14,278 nucleotides of DNA from Bacillota bacterium (lineage in GTDB: Bacteria; Bacillota; Sulfobacillia; JAJZYS01; JAJZLH01): NCBI GenBank assembly GCA_021850485.1, contig JAJZLY010000021.1, forward strand, positions 1 through 14,278, in the 5' to 3' direction. Made by a program: the position numbers and the translations under genes. Below the pieces are notes generated by a model. It was not told the origin of the DNA, ran no database searches, and worked only from the letters and a program-made list of their open reading frames with translations. Positions within the stretch are counted from its first letter, which is position 1; each line of letters begins with the position of its first letter. Positions 579 through 13,885 of the stretch are shown here, in pieces.

Positions 579-1550
579 ATGCCCGCGCTGGCACACGCAC
601 AGGTCGCCTATGCCGATAAGCCTCCCGCCGCCTGGCAGATCTTGCGCCTCGGGCTGGCTGGTCTGTGGCTGCTAGACGGCCTCTTACAATTGCAGCCGCA
701 GATGTTCACCATGGATATGATCAGTAACATCATGCAACCTGCCGCCACCGGTGAGCCAGGATGGTTGCACGGCCTGATCGCCTGGTCGATCCAATGGGTG
801 ACGCCGAATCTGGTGGCCTTCAACTGGGCAGTGGTCGCCATCCAATTGGCAATTGGGCTGACGCTGTTGGTCCCCTGGCCCAAGGTGATGCGTGGCGGGC
901 TCTGGCTATCCATCGTCTGGAGTGCCTTGGTTTGGTTGTTCGGGGAGGGCTTTGGCCAGCTCCTCACCGGATCAGCCACCTTTCTGACCGGGGCACCAGG
1001 GTCTGTCTTCTTCTACGGAGTGGCTGCCGGGCTGCTCCTGTGGTCTCGAGGCTGGGACGGCGGCCCTCACCCATGGCCAGCAGGGCTGGCGGCGACTCAG
1101 GTGGTGGCAGTCAGTTTGCTCTTGGCAGCAGCCTTGCAACTTGAACCCGGCTTTTGGGCAAGCCTCGGTCTGGGAGCAGTGATTGCTTCTGGAGCGGTGA
1201 TGGCGCAGCCGGACTGGCTGCGCTGGACGCTCGACGTGGCCGCCATGGCGGCCACTCTGGCGCCGGTGTTGGTGAATGCGGTGATCGTCGCGATCTCACT
1301 CGGTCTTGGAGTGGCGGTCATGACGGCAGCCGGCAACCGCTGGGTGCTGTGGGCCACCATCGGATGGTTGCTCGTGGTGTGGTGGATCGGACAAGACATG
1401 GGCGCCCTGTTTAGCGGCATGGCAACCGACCCAAACACTGCGCCGGTATTGGTCCTGTTGCTGTGGGCAGGCTGGCGGGCTCGGGCGGATTTAGCTGCCG
1501 ACGCGGGAGGCGATCGGGATCTAGCCGAGGCTGAGCGCGTTCGGTTCTAG
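579..1550 (+). CDS. Polytopic DoxX-like membrane protein with internal repeat
   Basis: This is a 323-residue integral membrane protein with about eight hydrophobic segments (roughly 20-38, 78-100, 106-121, 142-156, 171-187, 193-210, 221-250, 256-272, with a last one near 288-300). The N-terminal half (LRLGLAGLWLLDGLLQLQP) looks like the DoxX-type membrane family. An ATG at 558 is in frame, but the AGGAGGGGG at 561-569 lies inside that extension and sits 9 nt before the ATG at 579, so 579 is the better start. Residues 121-140 and 270-289 align without gaps (G-E/Q-x-x-G-x-L-x-x-G-x-A-T-x5-AP), which shows an internal duplication of a loop/TM unit. Its function is unknown; some DoxX/DoxD relatives serve in quinone-linked sulfur or thiol oxidation, but no catalytic residues are evident here. 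It follows the cupredoxin on the same strand, so co-expression is plausible. Its stop overlaps that of the convergent radical SAM gene. Confidence 0.7.
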   Translation: MPALAHAQVAYADKPPAAWQILRLGLAGLWLLDGLLQLQPQMFTMDMISNIMQPAATGEPGWLHGLIAWSIQWVTPNLVAFNWAVVAIQLAIGLTLLVPWPKVMRGGLWLSIVWSALVWLFGEGFGQLLTGSATFLTGAPGSVFFYGVAAGLLLWSRGWDGGPHPWPAGLAATQVVAVSLLLAAALQLEPGFWASLGLGAVIASGAVMAQPDWLRWTLDVAAMAATLAPVLVNAVIVAISLGLGVAVMTAAGNRWVLWATIGWLLVVWWIGQDMGALFSGMATDPNTAPVLVLLLWAGWRARADLAADAGGDRDLAEAERVRF

Positions 1551-2695
1551 GCGGGTGATGCCAGCGGGCAGGCGGGATCTGCGGCCAAAGGGTCTCCGGT
1601 CATGCTGTAGGCGCGCGCCCGCGAGCCGCCGCAGATGAAGCGGTGCACGCAGGTGCCGCACGGATCTTGAAAGCAGCGATGGCGGATCGCCTCCAGGAGC
1701 GGGTGATGTCGGTAGATGTCGGAAAGTTGATCGCGGCGTACATTGCCGAGCGGGACGGGCAAAAAACCGCCCGGGGACACGGTGCCATCGTGGGCCACAA
1801 ATAAGATGCCGTCTCCATCCAAGGTGCCCTTAGTGCCGATTCGAACGTCGTGGGGAGCAAGTCCAGATAGTTGCTCCAGTCGGGAACTGAGATGGCGGTG
1901 CAACGCCCCGCCCTGTGTCCCCTGGCGGCGTTCGGTCAGGATCCGGCGGACGAACGGGGCCTCGACCGTGCGCACCACCAGATCGTAGCGGGATGCATCC
2001 AGCAGAAACTGACAGACGTCTTCGCTGTCTTGGGCCGACAACATGTCGTTTTTGCCAGCGCGACCGGTGGCGATTAGGAAGAACACTTCCCAGATCGGGA
2101 TCCGCTCTCGGAGCAGGAGGGCGGCAACGTCGGCCAAAGTCTGGACGGTCTGGGCCATTACCACCGTATTGATCTGAACGCGCAGCCCTATTTCCTGGGC
2201 GAGGCGAGCCGCCTCGAGCGTGCGCTCAAAGGTGCCAGGCACACCTCTGATCTGGTCGTGAACAGCAAGCGGTGCATCGAGGCTGAGTGAAATAGCCGCG
2301 ACGCCAGCTGCCTGCAGGCGCTCCAAAGCAGTGCGGTTCAGCAACGGTGTCACGGCAGGAGCGGCCGCCACGTGTAATCCCAACTGATGGGCGCGAGTGA
2401 TCAGGTCGTAGATGTCTGGGCGTAACAACAAGTCACCGCCAGTGAAGATGACCACCGGGGCCGGTTGGCCGAGGGCACAGATCTGTTCGAGCAACCGCAG
2501 GCCCTCTTTCGTGTCCAACTCGCCGGGCAGGGGGTGGCGCTGTGCAGTTGCCCGGCAGTGGCTACAGGCCAGCAGGCAGGCCCGGGTCGTCTCCCAGAAG
2601 ACCAGCATCGGTCGACTGGCGAACGCTGAGCCTGCCTCTGGCCCTCGGTCGCCCACCACCACCGTCACCTCCGGCTGGTTCAGACACAACACCAA
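1547..2695 (-). CDS. Radical SAM/SPASM domain protein
   Basis: A protein of up to 382 residues. The radical SAM cluster motif is C40-x3-C44-x2-C47 (TTRACLLACSHCRA), followed by the GGD motif (IFTGGDLLLRP) used in SAM binding. A C-terminal SPASM region supplies C341, C346, C349, C355 and C376 (CFQDPCGTCVHRFICGG), enough for auxiliary Fe-S clusters. The layout resembles NirJ/AhbC/AhbD-like and peptide-modifying SPASM enzymes, and from memory the TIGR04053 family. The substrate cannot be told. The start is uncertain: TTG 2695 has no good ribosome binding site, while GGAGGTG lies just ahead of in-frame GTG codons near 2662 and 2659, and these would remove only residues before the conserved domain. 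The gene follows the diiron gene after 72 bp and probably shares its DosR-box promoter. No precursor-peptide ORF is visible nearby, so a RiPP role is not supported. Confidence 0.85.
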   Translation of the reverse strand: MVLCLNQPEVTVVVGDRGPEAGSAFASRPMLVFWETTRACLLACSHCRATAQRHPLPGELDTKEGLRLLEQICALGQPAPVVIFTGGDLLLRPDIYDLITRAHQLGLHVAAAPAVTPLLNRTALERLQAAGVAAISLSLDAPLAVHDQIRGVPGTFERTLEAARLAQEIGLRVQINTVVMAQTVQTLADVAALLLRERIPIWEVFFLIATGRAGKNDMLSAQDSEDVCQFLLDASRYDLVVRTVEAPFVRRILTERRQGTQGGALHRHLSSRLEQLSGLAPHDVRIGTKGTLDGDGILFVAHDGTVSPGGFLPVPLGNVRRDQLSDIYRHHPLLEAIRHRCFQDPCGTCVHRFICGGSRARAYSMTGDPLAADPACPLASPA

Positions 2696-2767: not shown

Positions 2768-3634
2768 TTAGGCCGATGGCGGGACGCGAGCCGGTGGCGC
2801 CAACGCAGCTAGCGTCTGAGAGACAAAGCAACCCTGGCAGCTGGCCGGAAGGGGCGTGCCGATCGCAGTTTCGGCGCTGGCCGGACAGGCGCCGCAACGC
2901 AAGCCGACATGGCGGCTCCTGGCCTGCACCTCGTCAGAGAAGGCGGAAAACAGGTCTTGGGCGGGAAAGCCAAGAGCCGAGGCGTCGTCCTTCAAGGTGA
3001 TGCCCATGCGGGCGACGATGCGCAGAAGGTCTTCTTTCACCGAGAAGATCTCTTGGCGCAGGTCGTCGTCGGCAGTCGGCAGGTGGTCAGACAGATAGTG
3101 TTCAGCGAAGGCCTGATGGCGTCCCTCGTCGACCACGATGTTGGCCGAGATGCGGCCGAACAAAAATGCTCCCTTGGTCCGGGCGAAGGCGCCGTACAGC
3201 GTGCGGGCGAAGATGTCGCTGACCAAGATGCCCATCACCCAGTGCAAGGGTGTCTTGCCCATTCGCATGCGGTGATGGTATTGAAGCATCTCTGGCATTT
3301 CCTTGATGCGCATCGGGGCGAAGCCGAGCAGACCGTATAGGTGGGTGATGGTCTCGATGTGGCGGGCCTCGTCCATCAGGAAGCTTGGCATATACAACTG
3401 GGCAGACTCACTTTCGCCGCCGAGCATCAGCAGGGCCTGAGCCCCACCCAACAGAGCTGCCCGCTCGCCTAAGAACACAGGCGTGAGCAGGCGAGCCAAC
3501 GCCTGCCGACCGCGCAGATCCAATCCGTCTGGGATGGTCCAGTCCACGTCCTCAATCGTCCACTGGTGTTTGGCGCCGATGTGAAAGAGCCGGGTATAGC
3601 GCGCATCGTCCAGGCGAGGGGCGATTCTGATCAC
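2768..3634 (-). CDS. Ferritin-like (R2-type) diiron protein with C-terminal CxxC pair
   Basis: A 288-residue, mostly helical protein of the ribonucleotide-reductase-R2/ferritin-like superfamily. Likely diiron ligands are E57 (FLGERAAL), E89 and H92 (MDEARHIE), an acidic residue near D140 (GILVSDIFART), and E170 and H173 (VDEGRHQAFAEHY), giving the expected two ExxH-type pairs. The C-terminus carries C247-x2-C250 and C266-x2-C269, which could bind zinc or iron or act as a redox dithiol; R2, R2lox and AurF-type proteins do not normally end this way. The GTG start is set by AAGGAGG 8 nt upstream. The enzyme is probably an O2-activating oxidase/oxygenase or an electron-transfer diiron protein, not a true RNR subunit, since no R1 gene is present. 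It leads a two-gene unit with the radical SAM gene, and two DosR-like boxes lie 88-124 nt upstream of its start, so induction by the adjacent two-component system is likely. Confidence 0.75.
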   Translation of the reverse strand: MIRIAPRLDDARYTRLFHIGAKHQWTIEDVDWTIPDGLDLRGRQALARLLTPVFLGERAALLGGAQALLMLGGESESAQLYMPSFLMDEARHIETITHLYGLLGFAPMRIKEMPEMLQYHHRMRMGKTPLHWVMGILVSDIFARTLYGAFARTKGAFLFGRISANIVVDEGRHQAFAEHYLSDHLPTADDDLRQEIFSVKEDLLRIVARMGITLKDDASALGFPAQDLFSAFSDEVQARSRHVGLRCGACPASAETAIGTPLPASCQGCFVSQTLAALAPPARVPPSA

Positions 3635-3721
3635 GGAGGAGGCCTCCTTGGGCGCCGGTATCAGGCGTCAGCCCGCCCAACTCATCAGTCTCAGCCTAGA
3701 TCACGGCTGATGGCGCGCCCA

Positions 3722-3735
3722 GGGACTAAAGTCCC
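3722..3735. promoter_or_regulatory. DosR/DevR-like box A
   Basis: GGGACTAAAGTCCC is a perfect palindrome with 6-bp arms. It matches all 14 core positions of the published DosR (DevR) consensus GGGACTWWAGTCCC; the outer flanks (CCA/GCC) do not match the TTS/SAA flanks. It lies 88 nt upstream of the GTG start of the diiron gene and 43 bp beyond the stop of the response-regulator gene. A possible -10 element (TAGGCT on the - strand, around 3694-3699) sits between box and start. Confidence 0.8.
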
Positions 3736-3744
3736 GCCTGGACT

Positions 3745-3758
3745 GGGACGTTAGTCCC
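3745..3758. promoter_or_regulatory. DosR/DevR-like box B
   Basis: GGGACGTTAGTCCC matches 13 of 14 core positions of the DosR consensus. Its centre is 23 bp from the centre of box A, about two helical turns, so two regulator dimers could bind the same DNA face. DosR-regulated promoters in mycobacteria commonly carry such paired sites. It is the promoter-distal site of the pair for the diiron/radical SAM unit. Confidence 0.78.
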
Positions 3759-3778
3759 TGCTGGTCGTGGATGAGCGG

Positions 3779-4432
3779 CTAAGTGCGGTAACGCTGAGTT
3801 TGTTCATGGACCAGCACAACGATCTGGGCCCGCCGGGCGAAGCCCAGTTTGCTCAAGATGTCGCTGATATGGTTCTTGACCGTCTTCTCAGAAAGGCCGA
3901 GCTGATCGCCGATCTCGCGGTTGGAAAGGCCGCGGCTGACCGCCATCACAACTTCCATCTCGCGCTTGGTCAGCCGATCCGCCAGGGCCACGGTGGGATT
4001 GGTGCCCTCGGGTGTTTGCAGGTGGCGGACCAAGGCGTCAGCCACCTGTTCGCCCAGCATCGGCCGCCCGGCCATCAGGTCATCGATGGCCGTGATCAGC
4101 CGCGCACTGTCTGCCGATTTGACCAAGAAGCCGTCAACACCGGCCGCCACCGCTTCCACCACCGCTCGGTCCTCGCCGTAGGAGGTGAGCACCAAGATGC
4201 GGGTGGCGGGAGACAGCCGCCGCACATCCGGGACGATGGCTGTTCCAGGCCGGTCGGGAAGGCGCAGATCGAGCACCAACACGTCTGGCCGGTATAGATC
4301 CACCGCCGCCACGGCCTCTTCGGCCGTACCCACCGCGGCCTTCACCTGAAAATCCGGACGATCGGCCAGCACGGTGGTGAGGCCGACCCGGACCACTGCA
4401 TGGTCGTCGACGATCACGATCGATACGCTCAT
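3779..4432 (-). CDS. NarL/LuxR-family response regulator, DevR/DosR-like
   Basis: A 217-residue two-domain regulator. The receiver domain (about 1-120) has the acidic pair D9/D10, phosphoacceptor D55 (VLVLDLRLPD), T83/S84 and K105. The LuxR/GerE helix-turn-helix occupies about 150-212 (LTKREMEVVMAVSRGLSNRE...). Its recognition helix SEKTVKNHIS keeps Lys183, Lys186 and Asn187; from memory the equivalent K-T-V-K-N residues of M. tuberculosis DosR contact its box. The same motif occurs in other NarL-family members, so the residues alone are not decisive, but two near-consensus DosR boxes within 80 bp of the gene strengthen the call. The start ATG overlaps the kinase stop (ATGA) and has AGGAGG 7 nt upstream, so the pair is translationally coupled. 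It probably activates the diiron/radical SAM promoter and possibly its own operon. Confidence 0.88.
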   Translation of the reverse strand: MSVSIVIVDDHAVVRVGLTTVLADRPDFQVKAAVGTAEEAVAAVDLYRPDVLVLDLRLPDRPGTAIVPDVRRLSPATRILVLTSYGEDRAVVEAVAAGVDGFLVKSADSARLITAIDDLMAGRPMLGEQVADALVRHLQTPEGTNPTVALADRLTKREMEVVMAVSRGLSNREIGDQLGLSEKTVKNHISDILSKLGFARRAQIVVLVHEQTQRYRT

Positions 4433-5823
4433 CGGGTTGCCTCCTGGCTGGGATTGGGCAGGGGCGGATCACAAGGGAGTTCGACCGCTACCCGCGCGCC
4501 CCCCTCCGGGCGTGCTCCGAGCGTGGCAACACCGCCTAGGCGCTGTGCCCGTCGGCTCAGGTTGCCTAGGCCGCGGCCGGCCCCTGACACATCGGAAAGT
4601 CCGATTCCATTGTCGTCAACAGTCAGCCGAATGGTGTTGCCGCTGCGCTCCAGGCAGACTAAAACCTCGCTGGCCTGTCCATGGCGGCCGGCATTGGAAA
4701 CCGCCTCAGCGATCAGCATGGATAAATCGCTGGCCCATCCTCCCGGCATCTCCTTGGCCAGGGCCAACCCTTTCCAGGTCAGCTTAATCCCGTAGAGCTC
4801 AGCCATCTGATGTGTCGCCAGGCGCAACTGGTCGACGATCGCCGGAGCTGGGGTCTGATCGAGGTCGTCCAGGACGCGGCGAATGGCATCCATCGCCTGT
4901 TGCACGGCCTCCAGGACCAAGTCTAACGAGCCTGGATCCGGAACAGACGCCATCTGGAGACGGCGGCTGCGGTCCAACTGGATGCCGACAGCGTAAAGCG
5001 TTTGCAGGGCTCCGTCGTGGAGCTCCATGGCAATCTCCCGCCGCTCTGCGGCCCGCACCACAGCGGCTTGATCGCGCAGCAATCTGGCCCGGGCGATGGC
5101 AGCAGCAGCGTGCATGCCAAACATCTCCAACAGCTGTTCTTCTTCCGCCGAAAACGGCTCTTCGCCGTGGTGGCCGCCCAGGTAGAGGTGTCCGACCAGT
5201 TCCCCTTGCCAATACAGTGGCACACCGAGAAAGGTGCGAAAGTGGGGATGTTCTTTGGGAAAGCCGCTGAAGTCCGTCTCGACCTGGACGTTGGACAGAC
5301 GTAGCGGCCGTTCGTCGACGGACAGCCGGCGGAGCAGGCCGCGATGGCTGGGCGGCAGGCCGATCCGGTCGCGGATGTCATCAGCCACCCCGACCGTGAC
5401 GAAGTTCACCACCTGCTCTTGCTCGTCGAATTCGGACAAGGCCCCATAGGTGGCGCCGGCCAGGCGCACGGCGAGACCCACAATCTGGCGCAAGACGTCG
5501 GGATAGGCCTCTTTGGACCGCACGGCCACCGCCGCCTCGTGCAAGGTCTCGAGCAGCGCTCGACGGCGATCTGCCTCCTCGCGCAGCCGCTCGGCCTCCT
5601 CGGCCTGGGCGGTGGCGCGCACCCAGAGCAGCCCCAGTTGAGAGAAGGCCACGAAGACAAAGATGGCAGCGAGCGCCGTGCCCAAGTAGAGCAGGTCCCG
5701 CTGCCAGGCTAAGGGGGCAAAGGGGGCCAGCGTGAGGCCGACCGCCAGCTCGATGGCAACCACCACCGAGGCGGTGAACCAGCGCCAAAAGCCGCCTTTG
5801 ATCATGGACCGGAGTCGGCGCAA
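4429..5823 (-). CDS. Membrane sensor histidine kinase with GAF domain, DevS-like
   Basis: 464 residues. Two TM helices (about 15-38 and 44-68) flank a very short loop, then a coiled coil (70-100), one GAF domain (about 105-250), a HisKA_3 dimerisation/phosphoacceptor segment with H269 (MELHDGALQTLYAVG) and an HATPase_c domain with an N box around N377, G1 motif D403-D404-N405-G406-I407-G408 and a glycine lid near 416-420. The GAF stretch (RTFLGVPLYWQGELVGHLYLG) is very like DevS/DosS GAF domains, which bind haem and sense O2, NO or CO in mycobacteria. His192 and His194 lie just before it and are candidate ligands, but I cannot confirm the alignment. Mycobacterial DevS has two GAF domains and no TM helices, so this is a variant layout. 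TTG 5823 is preferred because GGAGGTG lies 5-6 nt upstream, whereas ATG 5805 has no ribosome binding site. It lies 45 bp after the oxidoreductase gene. Confidence 0.87.
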   Translation of the reverse strand: MRRLRSMIKGGFWRWFTASVVVAIELAVGLTLAPFAPLAWQRDLLYLGTALAAIFVFVAFSQLGLLWVRATAQAEEAERLREEADRRRALLETLHEAAVAVRSKEAYPDVLRQIVGLAVRLAGATYGALSEFDEQEQVVNFVTVGVADDIRDRIGLPPSHRGLLRRLSVDERPLRLSNVQVETDFSGFPKEHPHFRTFLGVPLYWQGELVGHLYLGGHHGEEPFSAEEEQLLEMFGMHAAAAIARARLLRDQAAVVRAAERREIAMELHDGALQTLYAVGIQLDRSRRLQMASVPDPGSLDLVLEAVQQAMDAIRRVLDDLDQTPAPAIVDQLRLATHQMAELYGIKLTWKGLALAKEMPGGWASDLSMLIAEAVSNAGRHGQASEVLVCLERSGNTIRLTVDDNGIGLSDVSGAGRGLGNLSRRAQRLGGVATLGARPEGGARVAVELPCDPPLPNPSQEATR

Positions 5824-5868: not shown

Positions 5869-7755
5869 CTAGCGGGGATGGCGGGCGATCATCCGGTCGG
5901 CCCCGACCATCACGGCGGCCAGTCCAGCGGAGATGATGCCGCCCACAAAGCCAGCCACGGAGAGGAACAACAACACACTGACCACCAGCAGGCCACCAGC
6001 CGTGAGCAAAAACGGTGACACCCGACGGTGAGGGCTGGGGTTGGCTGCGATCTTCGGTGTGAGAACGCCGCGCCGCGGATGAATGGCCAAAACTGCCTGG
6101 GCAGCAGCCTTGCCCTGGGCCATCGATCCGACCACGGTGGACGGTCCGACCAGGGCGTCTCCAGCGACCCAGATCCGGTCACCCTGCGGTCGCTTGGCCT
6201 GATCCAGGCCCTGCTCCCGCTCGTAGGCGACCTGCCCGACTGAGCCCCTCTGCGACAGTATACCGCTGGCCAGCCAGCGCCGGTCCGGGATTGCCTGAGT
6301 GAGATTGGGCCGGGGCAGCGGCAGCCGGGGGGTGAATGGCAGACTGAGCCCGGAGTCGACGCGATAGCCCATGGCCATCACCACCAGATCGCACTGAACC
6401 GCCTCGGTGGTCTCGTCGGTCACCTTGGGCAACTCGCTGGCTCGCCGCTGGCGCGTGTGGCGGAGCAGAGCAGTGTCGACTTGGCCGGCTTTGCCCTCCA
6501 GTCGCTCCACGGAGGTGGAAAAGCGGATCACAACGCCCTCTGCCCTGGCCTCTGCCAGCTCGTCCCGCCGGACCCGGGCGAAGTGTTCATCCATCCAGTC
6601 CACGGCTGTGGCCTGACCGCCCAGCCGACGGACGGAGCGCGCCACATCCATGGCGGTGTTGCCAGCGCCGATGACCAGCACCCGGGTGGTCGCCTGAATG
6701 TCGTTCAGATGGGTGCCGTGCTGGAGGGCGTACTTGGCCCGCTTCAAGAAGTGGGTGGCATCCTCCACCCCTGCGAGCTCCACTCCCGGTACTGCCATCC
6801 GCATCGGCACAGATGCGCCGTGGGCCAAGATGACGGCGTCGTGCATGCCCAAAAGTTCGTCGATCATCACGTCTTTGCCGATGGCGACGCCCAGACGGAC
6901 ACTGACGCCGGCTTGGCGCAGGGCATCGATTGGCCGCTTGGCCACCTGATCAGGCAGCGAGAAGGAAGGAATACCCCAAGCCAGCACGCCAAGCGGCTCC
7001 AGGTCTCGCTCGTAGACGGTGACCTGGGCGCCGTGGGCGACCAGCTCCCAGGCGGCTGCCAAGCCGGCTGGGCCAGAACCGACCACCGCTACGGAGAGAT
7101 CGTGACCGTCCGTGCCTGCGACTTGCGGCTCGGGCACCGGCTGTTGGTCGGTGATGAAGCGCTCCAGCAGACCAATCGACACCGGGCGCTCTCCCGCCAG
7201 GGTCCAAGAGCACGCCCCTTCGCACTGGGCGGCCTGATCGCACACTCTAGAGCAGATGTCCGGCAGGGCAGTGGTCTGACTGAGGATGCTGTGCGCCTTG
7301 TCCAGGTCATGATCCCGGATCGCCGCGATGAAGGCGGGGATGTCATTGTGCGCTGGGCAGCCCTTGAGACAGGTGGGATCGGGGCAGCTCAGACAGCGGG
7401 TGGCCTCGGTCATCGCCTGCTGCCAGGTGGTGAAACCCTGGCGGATCTCCGTGACGTCGAGATCCAACACGGCCGGGTGATGGGCGGCGGGCCGAACTGG
7501 AGTCGAGACAACGATCGGGCCGGACACCAAGATGGCGCTGTACGGGCAGACGCGCTCGCACTGCCGGCAGCCGACGCACAGAGCATCGTTGGCCTGGGCC
7601 ACCCAGTCCCCGGAGTCAAGGCTTAGGGCGCCAGTCGGGCAGCGGATGATGCACTCTTGGCATCCAGCGCAGCGCTCCTGATTGACCTCGACGTGCGCAT
7701 GACGGGGCTCGATCTCGGTCACAGTCCGGGGGGCGGATTCTTGTCTTAGCGCCAT
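5869..7755 (-). CDS. FAD/NAD(P)-dependent oxidoreductase with 2x[4Fe-4S] ferredoxin domain (GltD-like) and C-terminal TM hairpin
   Basis: 628 residues from the ATG at 7755; AAGGAGG lies 7 nt before it, while the in-frame ATG at 7761 is too close. Residue numbers here count from 7761. The ferredoxin domain has C31-x2-C34-x2-C37-x3-C41 and C62-x2-C65-x2-C68-x3-C72. A GltD/NfnB-type Fe-S region follows (C123, C126, C131, C135; C170, C174, C180, C184). Next come the FAD motif GSGPAG (228-233), LGVLAWGIP, the NAD(P) motif GAGNTA (365-370) and the FAD-closing AGDALVGPSTVVGSMAQGK. The last 50 residues form two hydrophobic helices (about 583-600 and 603-620), unusual for this soluble family and implying a membrane anchor. 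It likely moves electrons between NAD(P)H and Fe-S carriers at the membrane. The upstream polyferredoxin gene ends 27 bp before it, which makes that protein the obvious partner. Confidence 0.87.
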   Translation of the reverse strand: MALRQESAPRTVTEIEPRHAHVEVNQERCAGCQECIIRCPTGALSLDSGDWVAQANDALCVGCRQCERVCPYSAILVSGPIVVSTPVRPAAHHPAVLDLDVTEIRQGFTTWQQAMTEATRCLSCPDPTCLKGCPAHNDIPAFIAAIRDHDLDKAHSILSQTTALPDICSRVCDQAAQCEGACSWTLAGERPVSIGLLERFITDQQPVPEPQVAGTDGHDLSVAVVGSGPAGLAAAWELVAHGAQVTVYERDLEPLGVLAWGIPSFSLPDQVAKRPIDALRQAGVSVRLGVAIGKDVMIDELLGMHDAVILAHGASVPMRMAVPGVELAGVEDATHFLKRAKYALQHGTHLNDIQATTRVLVIGAGNTAMDVARSVRRLGGQATAVDWMDEHFARVRRDELAEARAEGVVIRFSTSVERLEGKAGQVDTALLRHTRQRRASELPKVTDETTEAVQCDLVVMAMGYRVDSGLSLPFTPRLPLPRPNLTQAIPDRRWLASGILSQRGSVGQVAYEREQGLDQAKRPQGDRIWVAGDALVGPSTVVGSMAQGKAAAQAVLAIHPRRGVLTPKIAANPSPHRRVSPFLLTAGGLLVVSVLLFLSVAGFVGGIISAGLAAVMVGADRMIARHPR

Positions 7756-7782
7756 TTCCATACCTCCTTGCCCTTCATCCGG

Positions 7783-9294
7783 TTACTGGATCCCGCCCAT
7801 CGCCACATAGAGGGCCGCCACCGAGGCGGTGGCTACCACCACGAAGCCGAGGGCCAGCACATTGACCAGGACCGGGCGGGCGGTCAGGTGTCGCATGTCC
7901 CGGTTCAAGATGCGGTGAGTGACATAGAGTGCACCAACACCGCCGATCACAGCCAGTAGCACTTGGCTCAAGATCACCCCTGATGTTGGCAGGAGGTGGA
8001 CATTGTACAAGTTGGAGTGGGCCGTTCCGAATAGGTTCCAGCCCACCGCGAAGGGGTCCGAGATGGCCGGAATGATGCGCAGCGCGTGGTCCCAGAAGCG
8101 AGGCAACTGGCGGGCCAAGTAGTCGGCGGCCACGATCGGAGTGAGACCGTAGGCCAGCGGTGTCACCCAGGCAGAGAAGGTGTGGGCTAGGTGGGTCTTG
8201 CGGGAACCAGAGGTGTCGACCAGGCGAATGCCGCCAGCCCAGCGGACCAGGGCGTAGAAGCCGGCGCATACAGCGGTGCCAAGGGCGATGATGCCCAGAT
8301 AGTCGACCGGGTTGGGGTATCCCGGAAAGCCGGTGATGTTGTTTAGCCAATTGTCGAGTGGGACGTAAAACGGCAGGGCGTTCAGTTGCTGGAAGAGCAC
8401 CAGCCCGAACAGGCAGAGGATGGCCCAGGCCACGTCTGAGCGGCGGCTGGTGGGAGCGACCAGCGAGGTGAGCGGACGTTGCACAAACAGGCCCACGTTG
8501 TCCTTGGGGCAGTTCTTAAAGCACTCCGAGCAAAGGCCGCAGGTCAGGTTCGATGTGGCCGAACCAGGCCACTCGTACCAGGGGCAGGGGTAACCGTTCT
8601 CGCTACCGCGCATGCAGTCTTTGGTCTCACAGCTCAGACACACGTCGCGGTCTCTGGTCCGAAAGCCAGCCACCATGCCGGTCGAGCCGACGGTGCCGAT
8701 CAAGGCGGTGAGCGGGCACAGATAGCGGCAGAAGGTGCGCCGTTCGAAGGTCAAAAAGGTGATCAAGGCGAGCCCGATCACACCAAAGACCAGCAGGCTG
8801 GTGAACAGCGGCTTACCCGGCCCGGCGATGTTGTAGAACTCCTCAAACCAGGTCAGGACGATGAACACGCCGACCGAGGATAAAATGCCGACTTTGCTCC
8901 ACGACTTCGGCCATTTCAGGCCGAGGGTGAGCGAGATCTTGTGGCGCTGGAAGAAGCTGCGCCGCTGCACCCACTCGGCGAAGCCGCCAAACGGGCACAT
9001 CAGGCACCAGCCGCGACCTACGCCGACCATCAGTAAAAAGACCACGCAGAACCAGATGTACCAGGTGATCACGGTAGCGAAATTGCGGGTTGGAACAGCA
9101 GCGCCGAACAGGCCGGCCACGATCACAAACCAGAAGATCAGCTGGTTGGGTAAGATGAATAGGAACTGGAACGGGCGACTGCGCAGCATTTTCGCCAACA
9201 GCGGGTTGCGCGCCAGGTCGATCTTCGGATCACTCGGTGCGAAGTGTTCCTCCATCCCGTCTCGGCTGGGCTCCCGGAGCTTTCGTACAGCCAC
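7783..9294 (-). CDS. Membrane-bound polyferredoxin, NapH/NosR-like 4Fe-4S protein
   Basis: 503 residues from GTG 9294. The N-terminal half has about four TM helices with the cysteine motifs of this family: GRGWCLMCPFGGF (C97, C100) and RTFCRYLCPL (C189, C193). A cytoplasmic-type ferredoxin segment follows with C219-x2-C222-x4-C227, C237 and C252-x2-C255-x2-C258-x3-C262, for two [4Fe-4S] clusters. The C-terminal half adds four or five more TM helices (about 288-303, 333-352, 370-391, 437-462, 473-500), longer than plain NapH. It should carry electrons across or along the membrane. An upstream in-frame ATG at 9444 would add 50 residues, but that stretch contains the DosR-like box and is not family-like. 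GTG 9294 has GGAAGGTGG 8 nt upstream and is preferred. It is the first gene of the presumed polyferredoxin/oxidoreductase/kinase/regulator operon. Confidence 0.85.
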   Translation of the reverse strand: MAVRKLREPSRDGMEEHFAPSDPKIDLARNPLLAKMLRSRPFQFLFILPNQLIFWFVIVAGLFGAAVPTRNFATVITWYIWFCVVFLLMVGVGRGWCLMCPFGGFAEWVQRRSFFQRHKISLTLGLKWPKSWSKVGILSSVGVFIVLTWFEEFYNIAGPGKPLFTSLLVFGVIGLALITFLTFERRTFCRYLCPLTALIGTVGSTGMVAGFRTRDRDVCLSCETKDCMRGSENGYPCPWYEWPGSATSNLTCGLCSECFKNCPKDNVGLFVQRPLTSLVAPTSRRSDVAWAILCLFGLVLFQQLNALPFYVPLDNWLNNITGFPGYPNPVDYLGIIALGTAVCAGFYALVRWAGGIRLVDTSGSRKTHLAHTFSAWVTPLAYGLTPIVAADYLARQLPRFWDHALRIIPAISDPFAVGWNLFGTAHSNLYNVHLLPTSGVILSQVLLAVIGGVGALYVTHRILNRDMRHLTARPVLVNVLALGFVVVATASVAALYVAMGGIQ

Positions 9295-9381
9295 TATCGA
9301 TCCCACCTTCCGCCCCCAACGGTAGGCCGGACCCAAGGTGGCCGACAGTGCAAAAGGTCCCGGCCTGAGGGCAAGAAAGGG

Positions 9382-9395
9382 GGGACTAAGGTCCT
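9382..9395. promoter_or_regulatory. DosR/DevR-like box C (weaker)
   Basis: GGGACTAAGGTCCT matches 12 of 14 core positions of the DosR consensus. It lies 88 nt upstream of GTG 9294 of the polyferredoxin, the same distance as box A to the diiron start. It sits in the gap shared with divergent imuB (118 bp before the imuB ATG), so either or both directions could be affected. A lone half-site GGGAC lies at 9357-9361 on the - strand. Confidence 0.55.
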
Positions 9396-9404: not shown

Positions 9405-9512
9405 TCACGGATGAATCGGCCAAGAGCGGATTTTGCCGGGCCATCTTTGGGCAGGACGCCAGCCATCTGATGTCTAAATAGCCGGACCCGGGTATCGAGG
9501 GAGACGGTTTTG

Positions 9513-10586
9513 ATGTGGGTTGCCTTTTTATCCGTCGGCGGGCTCTACGCCAGCGCCGAGGGTCATCCGGTCATCTTGGTTCAAGGCCATGTGGTCTGGG
9601 ATGTTACGCCTGGCGTCGATGGCGTAAGGCCGGGGATGAAGGCCAGAGAGGCAGAACTGGCCGCTCCGGGAATTCCTCACCTCAGCTATGAAAAAGCGCA
9701 CCATGATCGCCCACTGGTGGCCCTGTGGCACACCCTGCAGGAGGCGGCTCCAGTGGTGGCGGTCGGACCAGATCTCATGCATACGGCTTTTTTGGCCTGG
9801 CCCGGAAATTGGCCGGGTCGAGAATTGGCGTTGATTCAAGACCGCTATCCAACTGCCCGAATCGGCGTGGCGACCAACCGTCTGGTGGCGAAGGCCGTGC
9901 TGCCGAGTCAGCCCGGGATGTTCCGGGTGGCGCCGGGTGAGGAGGCTAAAGCGCTGTCTGGGCTGCCGATAAGAGAGTTGTGGACCTTGCCTAAAGATGT
10001 GCAAGAGCAACTCCTGGCGCTTGGTCTGGAGACAGCAGGCGAGGTGGCAGCTGTCCCCCAGACAGTGCTGGTGAATCGGATGGGGCAGGCTGGATACCTG
10101 GCCGCCAGGACCGCACGCGGGCTGGACAACCAGAAAATCCATCACCTTGATCCCACACCCGATCTGACCGAGCGCCGGGTGTGGGCCCCCCCGTGTCGCG
10201 ACCATCTGGCCGAGGCGGTCGCGGAGATGGCTGTGCGGGTGGCGAAGCGTCTGCCAGCGGAGATCGGGGCAAAAGAGCTGACGCTTGTCTTGGACGGTCA
10301 CCGTCTGCAGCGCAGTTGGCCTGCTCCGATCCGTGACATCGGCCGGATCGGCCGGACAGCCGCCTTGCTCACCCTCAGCGTGCGGGCAGAAGAAGTGGAG
10401 GAGGCGACTGTCTCGCTTGGTCAGCTGGCCGCGGTGGCGGCAGTCCAAGAGAGACTCTTTGGGCCAGACCAGACGGCCATCCCGGAGCTGGCTGACGTGT
10501 CGCGTGGGGTAGAGATCGACCGATACGATGCGTTTTTGCGTCGCTACGACCCCCTTTTTGGAGGCAGCGATGGACAGAGGGCGTGA
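9513..10586 (+). CDS. imuB: ImuB-like, catalytically degenerate Y-family polymerase
   Basis: 357 residues from ATG 9513, which has GAGGGAG 9 nt upstream; a TTG at 9510 is directly in front. The Y-family layout is visible: a palm start (WVAFLSVGGLYASAE), the finger-region motif RIGVATNRLVAKAVL, a helix-hairpin-helix thumb (LPIRELWTLPKDVQ to about residue 205) and a little-finger domain (about 240-320). The catalytic acids are lost: the N-terminal Asp of the DxDxFFA motif is replaced, and the Asp-Glu pair of the SxDE motif reads GPDLMHT. This fits ImuB, which does not polymerise but scaffolds DnaE2 at the beta clamp. The sequence QERLF (about 312-316) matches the QxxLF clamp-binding motif. It is shorter than typical ImuB and lacks the usual C-terminal extension, which may be supplied by the next gene. 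The 3' end overlaps that gene by 17 bp. Confidence 0.75.
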   Translation: MWVAFLSVGGLYASAEGHPVILVQGHVVWDVTPGVDGVRPGMKAREAELAAPGIPHLSYEKAHHDRPLVALWHTLQEAAPVVAVGPDLMHTAFLAWPGNWPGRELALIQDRYPTARIGVATNRLVAKAVLPSQPGMFRVAPGEEAKALSGLPIRELWTLPKDVQEQLLALGLETAGEVAAVPQTVLVNRMGQAGYLAARTARGLDNQKIHHLDPTPDLTERRVWAPPCRDHLAEAVAEMAVRVAKRLPAEIGAKELTLVLDGHRLQRSWPAPIRDIGRIGRTAALLTLSVRAEEVEEATVSLGQLAAVAAVQERLFGPDQTAIPELADVSRGVEIDRYDAFLRRYDPLFGGSDGQRA

Positions 10587-10821
10587 GCGGGCAGTCCAAG
10601 TGTGCTGTGACGAAAGTGGCGACCCCGCGACCTTCGTAATGGGGCAGGTGACGTACGGACCGCTGCGGATCGAGGACACTTGGGCCTATCGCGAACCTTG
10701 GTGGCAGGCGGATGGGGGCGGTAACCGCCAGGTGTACCGGGTGCGGAGCAAAGCGGGTCACCTGTTCGATCTGTGCAAGATGCCGGCCGGGGACTGGCGG
10801 ATCTCCCGCCTGTTTGATTGA
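10570..10821 (+). CDS. Small DUF6504-like protein, probable detached ImuB C-terminal domain
   Basis: 83 residues starting at the ATG inside the end of imuB; the frame extends upstream, but only this start fits the overlap. Conserved-looking features are IEDTWAYREPWW, YRVRSKAGHLFDL and the ending GDWRISRLFD. From memory, actinobacterial ImuB proteins end in a similar pattern (W.gPW...WW / ..R..v....G....l....W.l...YD), and separate small proteins of this type are catalogued as DUF6504. Its place between imuB and dnaE2, with a 17-bp overlap on one side and a single base on the other, points to a mutasome component. No enzymatic residues are seen; a role in protein contact is the reasonable guess. 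Identification of the family is moderate, the gene itself is secure from its position and coupling. Confidence 0.65.
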   Translation: MDRGRERAVQVCCDESGDPATFVMGQVTYGPLRIEDTWAYREPWWQADGGGNRQVYRVRSKAGHLFDLCKMPAGDWRISRLFD

Positions 10822-10822
10822 G

Positions 10823-13800
10823 ATGGCAACCCACCTACACCTGCACGGACCCTTCAGCCACTTGGATGGTGCCTCTTCGGCAGCAGATCTGGCAGCGCGA
10901 GCAGCGTCGCTCGGCCAGCAGGCACTGGCCCTCACAGACCACAACTCGCTTTCTGGCATCGGCGAGTTTACACAGGCCTGCACCCAGGCGGGGGTGAGGC
11001 CGATCATCGGGGCGGAGGTCACGGTCGAGGATGCGACCGGTGCATCCAGCCACCTAACACTACTGGTCCCCGATCAGACCGGCTACAGCCATCTGTCACA
11101 ACTCATCTCTGCCGCTCACCTGAGCCGTCCTCGCGGTCAGCCAATGGCATCGCAAGAGGCGCTGGCTGCCCATGCGCCCTACCTGATCGGGCTCAGCGGT
11201 TGCCGTCAGGGCGAGGTGTCCAGACATCTGCTGGGGGGCCGCCGGGAATTGGCAGAAGAGGCGGCCAGGAGACTGATGGGGTGGTTCGGGAGAGGTAAGT
11301 TCTTCCTCGAACAAGAGGTTTGCCGGCTGCCAGGAGACCGTCCCTTACAGCGCGCCATGCGCGACCTTGGCCAGCACCTGCGACTGCCCCGAGTGGCCAC
11401 GTCAAACGCGCACTACGCCCAAGCCCAGGATTTTTGGTTGCACGATCTGTTGGTCTGTATCCGGACCAACAGTCGGGTGGATGATCTGGCACCTGGCCGA
11501 CCGATGAACGACTGGCAGTTTGTGCAATCTGAGGCGGACATGGCGCGCGGGCTGCCAGATGATCCGGCGGCCGTGGCGATGACCGATCGAGTGGCCGATA
11601 TGTGCGGGCTGGCGCTGCCTGATGCCAGGTTGCTGTTTCCGGCCGTCTTGTTGCCGCAAGGAGCGTCGAGCGCCTACGTCTACCTTCGCCAACTCACCGA
11701 ACAAGGGGCAATCTGGCGCTATGGCCAGATCGGCTCAAGATTGCGCCAGCGTATCGACGAGGAGCTCTCGGTGATTGCCCAAACTAAATTCACCGACTAC
11801 ATGCTGGCGGTAGCGGAGATCGCCGGCTGGGCGAGAGGGGCAGGAATTCGCACCTCTGGTCGCGGTTCTGCTGCGGATAGCGTGGTGGCCTACTGCCTGG
11901 GTCTCACCGATGTCGATGCCTTTGCCAGAGATCTCCCCTTTGCCCGGTTTTTGAGCCTGGGCCGGACCGACCCACCGGATGTGGATTTAGACTTCGACGC
12001 CGACCGCAGGGAGGAGGTGGCCGCCCACGTCGCCAGGCGTTACGGGCAAGACCATGTGGCGGCGGTTGCCACTTATGTCCGGTTGGAGGGAAGGCTGGCC
12101 ATCCGGGAGGTCGGCAAGGCTCTGGGGCTGCCAGCGGCAGAACTGGGAGCTATCGCCAAGCGAGTGCCTTATTACGTGGGAGCAGATGGTCTGCGAGAGG
12201 CTCTAGTGCGCGTGCCAGAACTGAGGCAGTTGAAGCTGTCCACAGGGCGGATCGAGACCTTATTGCAGGCCGCCGAGCGTCTTGCCGACTGGCCGCGCCA
12301 TCTGGGCACCCACCTCGGAGGCCTGGTGGTGACTGCCTGTCCAGTGGCCGAGGTCATGCCGCTGCAGATGGCGGCAAAGGGAACGGTGGTAGGCCAGTTC
12401 GATAAGCGGGACTGCGAGACGTTTGGCTTGATCAAAATTGACCTACTTCATTTGCGCACCCTGTCCGCGGTGAACGAGGCAATCACGGTGTCCCAGGTGC
12501 CATGGGAGACCATCCCAGCTGACGATCCGGCCACCTTCCGCCGACTTCGGCGAGCTGAGACGGTGGGTGCCTTCCAGCTGGAGTCTCCGGCCCAACGGGC
12601 CCTGCACCGGCGGATGAAGGGCGATCAGCTGGAGGATGTGATCGCTGCCACCGCTCTGATCAGACCGGGCCCGATCAAGGGGGACATGGTGGCGCCTTTC
12701 GTCAGGCGGCGGCTTGGCAAAGAGGCGATCATCTATCCGGCCCCTGGCCTGGAGGACGTGTTGGGCCGCACCTACGGCGTGGTGGTGTACCAAGAGCAGG
12801 TGTTGGAGATCGCGGTGCGGGTGGCCGGGTTTAGCCCGGCCGAAGCAGACCGGCTGCGGCGGACGATGAGCCGGGCGCGCTCCAAGGCCGAGATGCAGTC
12901 CCTGGGCGATGTGTTCTGCGCACGGGCCGTGGCAAGAGGAGTGGACCGGGGGGCGGCAGCGGAGATTTGGCAGACTCTGCTCGGCTATGCCTCCTACGGC
13001 TTTGCGGAGGGGCATGCCGCCGCCTTCGGACTGATCGGCTATCGCACCTTGTATCTTTTGGAACACCACTCGGCTGTCTGGTACGCAGCCCTCCTCAATC
13101 ACCAGCCAATGGGCTACTACCCACCGCAAACGCTGGTCACAGAGGCGAGGCGAAGAGGCATCCAGGTGCGGTTGCCAGATGTGAACCGGAGCGAACCGAC
13201 GTGGACGGTGCAAGATGGCGCATTGTCCTGCGGCCTCCTACAGGTGCGAAACATGAACGCGGAGGAAACGGACCGGGTGCTGGCCGGCCGACCCTACCGC
13301 ACGGCCTGGGATCTTGCGGAGAAAAGCCGCCTTCAGCCGGCAGCGCTCCGCCAACTGGTGCTGGCGGGAGCGCTTGATAGCCTGATCCCCAATCGGCGGC
13401 GAGCGCTGTGGCAGGTGGGGGGCCAGGCGGCTGTGGCAGATCTGGCTGATTTCACGCCCGAACGGCGACTGGCCCAGGAGATGGTGGCACTGGGATTGGC
13501 GGTGTCCGCGCACCCGCTCTCTTGCTTTCGCCCGCGCCTGGAGCGAGCAGGCGTGTTGCGCACCGACCAGGTGCTGTGTGCTCCGCATCGCATGCAGGCG
13601 ACGGTGGCCGGAGCGCTGGTGCGCCCGCACCGCCCGCCCACTAGGTCCGGTGAGCGAGTCGTGTTCTTGTGTCTGGAAGATGAGCGCGGTCTTCTGGATG
13701 TGACGGTGCCCGAGGCGGTCTACCGGCAAAACGCAGATGCGATCTTCGGGCCAGACGCCTGGCTGGTGGTGGTCGAGGGCACTGTGCGGGAAGTTGGCAC

Positions 13801-13885
13801 GGGTGCCAGTTTGGATGCACAGCGGGTGACCGCACTCACCGCTTATCTGGGCAGGAGTTACGCCCTGCAGCCGCCACGTGCGTGA
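10823..13885 (+). CDS. dnaE2: Error-prone DNA polymerase III alpha subunit DnaE2
   Basis: 1020 residues from ATG 10823, one base after the stop of the preceding gene (translational coupling). The frame is open further upstream, but only this start gives the standard N-terminus MATHLHLHGPFSHLDGAS of the PHP domain, with H4, H6, D15 and the LTDHNSL motif (D39/H40). The C-family palm has PPDVDLDFD with D388 and D390 as the metal-binding pair and D540 in IKIDLLHLRTL as the third acid. The fingers, a tandem helix-hairpin-helix region (LAEKSRLQPAALRQLVLAGALDSL is in the latter part) and a C-terminal OB fold (VAGALVRPHRPP to VTALTAYL) follow. Length and partner genes indicate DnaE2 rather than the replicative DnaE1. 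It performs translesion synthesis after DNA damage together with ImuB. I see no LexA-type operator upstream of the operon. Confidence 0.93.
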   Translation: MATHLHLHGPFSHLDGASSAADLAARAASLGQQALALTDHNSLSGIGEFTQACTQAGVRPIIGAEVTVEDATGASSHLTLLVPDQTGYSHLSQLISAAHLSRPRGQPMASQEALAAHAPYLIGLSGCRQGEVSRHLLGGRRELAEEAARRLMGWFGRGKFFLEQEVCRLPGDRPLQRAMRDLGQHLRLPRVATSNAHYAQAQDFWLHDLLVCIRTNSRVDDLAPGRPMNDWQFVQSEADMARGLPDDPAAVAMTDRVADMCGLALPDARLLFPAVLLPQGASSAYVYLRQLTEQGAIWRYGQIGSRLRQRIDEELSVIAQTKFTDYMLAVAEIAGWARGAGIRTSGRGSAADSVVAYCLGLTDVDAFARDLPFARFLSLGRTDPPDVDLDFDADRREEVAAHVARRYGQDHVAAVATYVRLEGRLAIREVGKALGLPAAELGAIAKRVPYYVGADGLREALVRVPELRQLKLSTGRIETLLQAAERLADWPRHLGTHLGGLVVTACPVAEVMPLQMAAKGTVVGQFDKRDCETFGLIKIDLLHLRTLSAVNEAITVSQVPWETIPADDPATFRRLRRAETVGAFQLESPAQRALHRRMKGDQLEDVIAATALIRPGPIKGDMVAPFVRRRLGKEAIIYPAPGLEDVLGRTYGVVVYQEQVLEIAVRVAGFSPAEADRLRRTMSRARSKAEMQSLGDVFCARAVARGVDRGAAAEIWQTLLGYASYGFAEGHAAAFGLIGYRTLYLLEHHSAVWYAALLNHQPMGYYPPQTLVTEARRRGIQVRLPDVNRSEPTWTVQDGALSCGLLQVRNMNAEETDRVLAGRPYRTAWDLAEKSRLQPAALRQLVLAGALDSLIPNRRRALWQVGGQAAVADLADFTPERRLAQEMVALGLAVSAHPLSCFRPRLERAGVLRTDQVLCAPHRMQATVAGALVRPHRPPTRSGERVVFLCLEDERGLLDVTVPEAVYRQNADAIFGPDAWLVVVEGTVREVGTGASLDAQRVTALTAYLGRSYALQPPRA

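Follow-up and report, generated by a model that had tools for sequence, protein, structure and literature searches.

The window analysed here, a stretch of DNA of 14,278 nucleotides, is contig C33 of a 1.61-Mb genome that is 97% complete. On its minus strand, the genes for a membrane polyferredoxin (polyFd), a GltD-like flavoprotein, a histidine kinase (HK) and a response regulator (RR) are followed by two palindromic boxes and then by genes for a diiron protein and a radical SAM protein (Table 1). The likely start of polyFd is the GTG at 9294, which is preceded by the Shine-Dalgarno sequence GGAAGG, and the domains of polyFd and the flavoprotein suggest that electrons may be passed from NAD(P)H to acceptors in the membrane or of low potential. 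The homologs of the diiron protein that show 89–91% identity come from the MAGs MAS3.bin100 and YP3.bin27, both labelled as Bacillota, and the more remote ones are mostly from Bacillota MAGs, Sulfobacillus, and Sulfoacidibacillus. Based upon the distribution of these homologs, the host is an acid-mine Bacillota lineage near Sulfobacillus and not a mycobacterium. Of the remaining genes in the window, those at 9510–13885, divergent from the polyFd operon, comprise a weak match to DNA polymerase IV (ImuB-like) followed by an error-prone DnaE-type polymerase, an arrangement that resembles the imuB-dnaE2 mutagenesis cassette. The region 33–1550, located after the radical SAM gene and convergent with it, encodes a cupredoxin/COX2-like protein, for which Pfam gives no significant match, as well as a membrane protein assigned to no family; both of these proteins also occur in locus L034.

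Table 1. Positions of the genes and of the candidate regulatory elements within the window; operator centres are relative to the predicted start sites.
Feature	Position	Strand	Sequence (minus strand)	Remarks
polyFd, membrane polyferredoxin (Fer4_5, NapH-like), operon gene 1	7783..9306	-		domain matches; gene order conserved
GltD-like NAD(P)H/FAD oxidoreductase with 4Fe-4S ferredoxin domain	5869..7761	-		same operon; gene order conserved
Sensor histidine kinase	4429..5823	-		two hydrophobic segments, one GAF, HisKA_3, HATPase
NarL-family response regulator, DevR-like	3779..4432	-		D55 phospho-acceptor; KTVKN at 183-187
Diiron gene, ferritin-like R2/ADO-fold protein	2768..3634	-		GTG start; AAGGAGG Shine-Dalgarno
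Radical SAM/SPASM protein, TIGR04053 family	1547..2695	-		437.8 bits against a cut-off of 395
Distal candidate operator, polyFd-GltD-HK-RR promoter	9382..9395	-	AGGACCTTAGTCCC	
Proximal half-box, polyFd-GltD-HK-RR promoter	9348..9361	-	GGGACCTTTTGCAC	implied centre -42.5
Putative -10, polyFd operon promoter	9319..9324	-	TACCGT	TAnnnT at the same place in nine genomes
Box B, distal candidate operator, diiron promoter	3745..3758	-	GGGACTAACGTCCC	implied centre -65.5
Box A, proximal candidate operator, diiron promoter	3722..3735	-	GGGACTTTAGTCCC	implied centre -42.5
Putative -10, diiron promoter	3693..3698	-	TAGGCT	same hexamer in all three species of the genus; spacing to box A constant

The Pfam matches of the diiron protein (Ald_deCOase and AurF) are weak. 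Its structural model (pLDDT 84.6) matches RNR R2, aldehyde-deformylating oxygenase (ADO), and R2lox, and it exhibits the characteristics of the R2/ADO type, viz. a helical ferritin-like fold, two ExxH motifs and two further carboxylates. The residues E57, E89, H92, D140, E170, and H173 were invariant in 21 diiron homologs, and on the basis of the sequence and the model the gene product is a predicted ferritin-like carboxylate diiron protein. The adjoining radical SAM protein passes the curated cut-off of TIGR04053, on which our literature search found no paper. The adjacency of the diiron and radical SAM genes, as well as the presence of boxes at either of them, was seen only in this genus, and no conserved boxes were found upstream of diiron or radical SAM homologs outside it.

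The two boxes lie in the 144-bp gap between the stop codon of the RR and the GTG of the diiron gene. The original prediction had described them as matching the mycobacterial dormancy-regulon consensus at 14/14 (box A) and 13/14 (box B) positions with their centres 23 bp apart in this gap, and all of these details were confirmed: box A (GGGACTAAAGTCCC) has no mismatch to GGGACTNNAGTCCC, box B (GGGACGTTAGTCCC) has one, and the coordinates give the same spacing. A 14/14 match was obtained in none of 3000 dinucleotide shuffles of the 200-bp region upstream of the diiron gene. It had also been proposed to check whether the two boxes are retained in front of orthologous diiron genes, and within the genus they are. 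Box A is base-for-base identical in both of its other species (G001 and G002), where the box and its flank are nearly unchanged while the DNA otherwise drifts, whereas box B is weaker but retained (GGGACTAAGGCCCT in G001 and AGGACTAAGGTCCT in G002). The G002 copy of box B is altered at both of its own ends (AGGAC..GTCCT) with its own dyad intact; a symmetric change of this kind is as expected of a dimer site, and we count it in favour of the boxes being operators.

The original prediction, which placed the boxes upstream of the diiron gene, is correct for that promoter, but they are not limited to it. A further box (9382–9395) and a half-box (9348–9361), which had been missed together with both -10 hexamers, are present in front of the first gene of the sensor-regulator operon itself. 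At the position of this distal box the two congeners contain GGGACCTTAGTCCC (G001) and GGGACTTTAGTCCC (G002), and across nine genomes, which represent two families of the order, polyFd is preceded by a box at a distance of 89–97 bp. In the other family (G005, G006, G007, G010, G011, and G012), where the same operon is present and the RRs are 57–60% identical, it has the form (A/G)GGACTTTGGTCC(C/T) and lies 90–97 bp upstream of polyFd. The match in G007 is weak when taken alone (equalled by 313 of 3000 shuffles), and its assignment rests on position and the shared pattern. Judging from this distribution in the sequenced genomes, the regulator's own operon is both the older and the more widespread target, with boxes in two families, and the boxes of the diiron/radical SAM pair are confined to the genus. 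In five loci of the other family (L124, L125, L128, L159, and L160), an extra half-box is also seen upstream of polyFd; it follows the distal box by 14 bp, and the sites then number three, at about -92, -78, and -44.

The arrangement of these sites relative to the predicted promoters is highly regular. In both promoters of the window a GGGACYTT half-box is situated exactly 23 bp ahead of a TAnnnT -10 element. At the diiron promoter, exactly 23 bp separate box A from TAGGCT in each of the three species of the genus, and at the polyFd promoter a half-box GRGACYTT precedes TAnnnT by 23 bp in eight genomes, with G005 showing a weaker half-box at 24 bp. When the genomes of this genus were scanned for RGGACYTT-N29-TANNNT, exactly two sites each were found genome-wide in G000 and G001, and three in G002; in every case two of them were those at the diiron and polyFd promoters, and the control counts were 0–2 per genome and strand. 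With the TAnnnT hexamer set as -12 to -7, the proximal sites are centred at -42.5, and start sites are predicted at about 3686 (diiron) and about 9312 (polyFd operon). No consensus sigma-70 -35/-10 pair is present in the diiron gap. A protein bound at -42.5 of these predicted promoters would take the place of the -35 element, a geometry typical of activation, and together with the lack of a consensus -35 this favours activation over repression. The DevR promoters of Mycobacterium tuberculosis likewise commonly contain two or more sites, of which the start-proximal one overlaps the -35 region (PMC3029386).

Since boxes A and B are complementary to each other, the minus strand RNA of 3690–3770 can form an unusually stable hairpin (-39.4 kcal/mol, z -3.97) in which box B pairs with box A, and the palindromes could thus act in RNA by ending or stabilising the transcript of the upstream operon. 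We consider this very improbable, because the hairpin contains no T run and gives no terminator match, no such hairpin is formed at the conserved site of the polyFd promoter (z 0.33), the changes in box B of G002 retain its own dyad but weaken the pairing with box A, and a fixed 23-bp spacing to the -10 element is unexpected for a terminator.

The signal from the boxes is local. Sites with no more than one mismatch number seven in the genome, as against seven for the reversed control, and hence there is no genome-wide excess. Two of these seven fall in the RR-diiron gap, three are inside genes (a trpB-like gene, dnaK, and, next to a likely mraW, a gene for a short membrane protein), the sixth overlaps nothing but an antisense ORF of 173 aa, and the last is located between ORFs. 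An equal abundance of such sites inside coding sequence had been named beforehand as an argument against the boxes; the genome-wide counts are indeed those expected by chance, but the cluster in the gap departs from it. A wider regulon based upon the box scans was rejected, as the sites away from the locus are at the level of the reversed-pattern control and mostly in coding sequence. In place of a large regulon of dormancy genes, two promoters were found, with the remaining sites at chance level.

Among proteins of solved structure, the RR was most similar to DevR of M. tuberculosis (3c3w, 141 bits; 41% identity overall), and the next match was VraR (115 bits). Its recognition helix, LSEKTVKNHIS, retains the K-T-V-K-N residues as originally reported, and D55 and KTVKN align with the Asp54-type acceptor and the base-contact residues of DevR, those of DosR being Lys179, Lys182, and Asn183 (PMC4082495). 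The earlier description of a DevRS-like two-component system next to the boxes is thus upheld, DevR and DosS/DosT being the best structural matches of its two proteins. The KTVKN helix by itself was rejected as proof of a DosR-type regulator, as the sequences in our tree show it to be common among NarL-type RRs. In this tree the RRs of the order formed a clade of their own (11 sequences, support 100/100, stem 1.38), separated by a long branch from DevR, which grouped elsewhere with RRs from Rhodococcus, Streptomyces, and an Embleya plasmid (100/98). Therefore, we refer to this protein as DevR-like and not as a DevR ortholog. Among 398 genomes of the phylum that were scanned, this RR group was found in this order alone. 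In G004, the helix reads KTVKH instead of KTVKN and no box is present upstream of polyFd, which would be one instance in nature of a joint change in regulator and site.

Sites of the GACT..AGTC type could instead be read by some other regulator, such as one related to LiaR/VraR, and not by the adjoining RR. VraR shares the NarL fold of this RR and ranks second among its matches of solved structure, and hence related regulators with sites like these could be present in Bacillota. Nevertheless, the box travels with the polyFd-GltD-HK-RR operon across genera, and the GerE helices that were read elsewhere in the genome (all but two of the GerE hits) are KTVET and NTVKT, without the DosR contact set; the helix of VraR itself is KTVKT, as compared to KTVKN here. 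Sensors of the VraS type are not known to be kinases with a heme GAF domain. This explanation appears to us scarcely credible.

The GAF domain of the HK was by sequence most similar to the GAF-A domains of DevS and DosT (86 bits), and with its predicted fold the first 17 PDB matches were all DosS/DosT GAF-A structures (E values of 5e-15 to 1e-12), the next GAF domain following at 8e-8. Its residues H192 and Y214, both invariant in 10 genomes of the order, align with His149 and Tyr171 of DosS (residue numbering matched by counting along the crystallised construct), which are the heme ligand and the ligand-discriminating residue, respectively (PMC4082495). However, the position of DosS Glu87 is occupied by Ser, and in contrast to the two GAF domains and absence of a membrane anchor in DosS/DosT, the HK contains a single GAF domain, preceded by two hydrophobic segments (about 15–40 and 42–72) that likely serve as a membrane anchor. 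These differences, and the wide occurrence of the same His motif (GFPxxHP) in GAF kinases, including paralogous ones, are consistent with a reading in which this RR does use the boxes as its operators, while its sensor responds through the GAF domain to some other ligand or to a redox state, and not to a heme-bound gas, and in which the RR may repress. This reading is rather unlikely, since the proximal His and the distal Tyr are invariant in the order, DosS/DosT fill all of the leading fold matches, and among the seven GAF_2 hits of the genome the extended motif GFPxxHP..TFLGVP is present in this HK alone; the promoter geometry noted above also favours activation.

Hence, our preferred interpretation, which we consider to be quite probable, is that the locus provides this acidophilic Bacillota lineage with a compact, local, and self-regulating switch similar to DosS/DosR, which responds to a gas or to redox conditions. 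The boxes and the extent to which they are conserved, the constant distance of 23 bp to the -10 element, the conservation of the operon, and the heme-ligand and DNA-contact residues are all seen directly in the sequences; heme binding, the signal, phosphotransfer, DNA binding, and the direction of regulation are the parts that we infer. In this switch, the heme in the single DosS-type GAF domain of the membrane-anchored HK would lose O2 or bind NO or CO, upon which the HK would phosphorylate the NarL-type regulator, and a dimer of the phosphorylated regulator would bind to boxes of the GGGACTTTAGTCCC type. At both promoters it would be positioned at -42.5, in the place of the -35 element, and be aided by the upstream box (class II activation with cooperative sites). 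The first promoter would drive the regulator's own operon (polyferredoxin, GltD-like flavoprotein, HK, and RR), resulting in positive autoregulation, and the second, limited to this genus, would drive the diiron protein and the radical SAM enzyme.

DosRS is a central hypoxia/NO switch of mycobacteria. The system described here resembles DosS/DosT-DosR (DevS-DevR) of M. tuberculosis in its tandem palindromic boxes of the GGGACTWWAGTCCC type, the proximal copy of which covers the -35 region as placed by the predicted -10, in its NarL-type RR with an Asp acceptor and the K-T-V-K-N contact helix, in a heme-type GAF domain with proximal His and distal Tyr, and in the box at the regulator's own operon. 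It differs in belonging to another phylum, with an RR that is 41% identical and forms its own clade, in the single GAF domain and two hydrophobic N-terminal segments of its sensor, and in having two promoters as opposed to a large regulon, the targets here being polyferredoxin/flavoprotein and diiron/radical SAM genes. DevRS-type systems with boxes upstream of the regulator gene are also known outside the mycobacteria, e.g., the actinobacterial OsdK-OsdR of Streptomyces coelicolor, with the consensus AGGGCCGATCGGCCCT and about 50 predicted targets (PMC5069765). Another DevSR-like pair, PolS-PolR of Microlunatus phosphovorus, is thought to respond to oxygen; PolR is 76% identical to DevR and yet is reported to bind GTTCACnnnnnGTTCaC (PMC6754071), from which it appears that similarity of the RR alone predicts little about the box sequence.

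The other DosRS-type examples that we found in the literature are actinobacterial, and searches for DosR together with Sulfobacillus, or for DevR/DosR boxes in Firmicutes, yielded no report of the present system. We see about an even chance that, in Bacillota, regulators of a clade that falls outside the DevR lineage work with an operator and a promoter layout all but identical to those of mycobacterial DosR and answer to a heme sensor of the DosS type, and that in one genus this system has captured the diiron/radical SAM pair, so that a gas signal would jointly control two metalloenzymes, one probably using O2 and the other sensitive to it. A two-promoter, minimal form of the switch in a Bacillota bacterium from acid mines would provide a simple system for studying heme-GAF signalling and the logic of DosR boxes, and it leads to the direct prediction that the uncharacterised diiron/TIGR04053 radical SAM pair is controlled by O2 or NO.

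A related HK-RR-diiron gene order, with the RR helix KTIKHY, is present in G045 and G020; a weak site in the latter (GGAACAGTAGTCCC) was not counted as a box, and G045 has no site. In two loci from distant Sulfobacillus-class genomes (L192, 3487–6758, and L193, 7034–10002), the genes for a kinase with only one GAF domain, for an RR of the NarL type (KTIKHY), and for a diiron protein are found consecutively, and based upon these gene orders the linkage of kinase, RR, and diiron gene may be older than the boxes.
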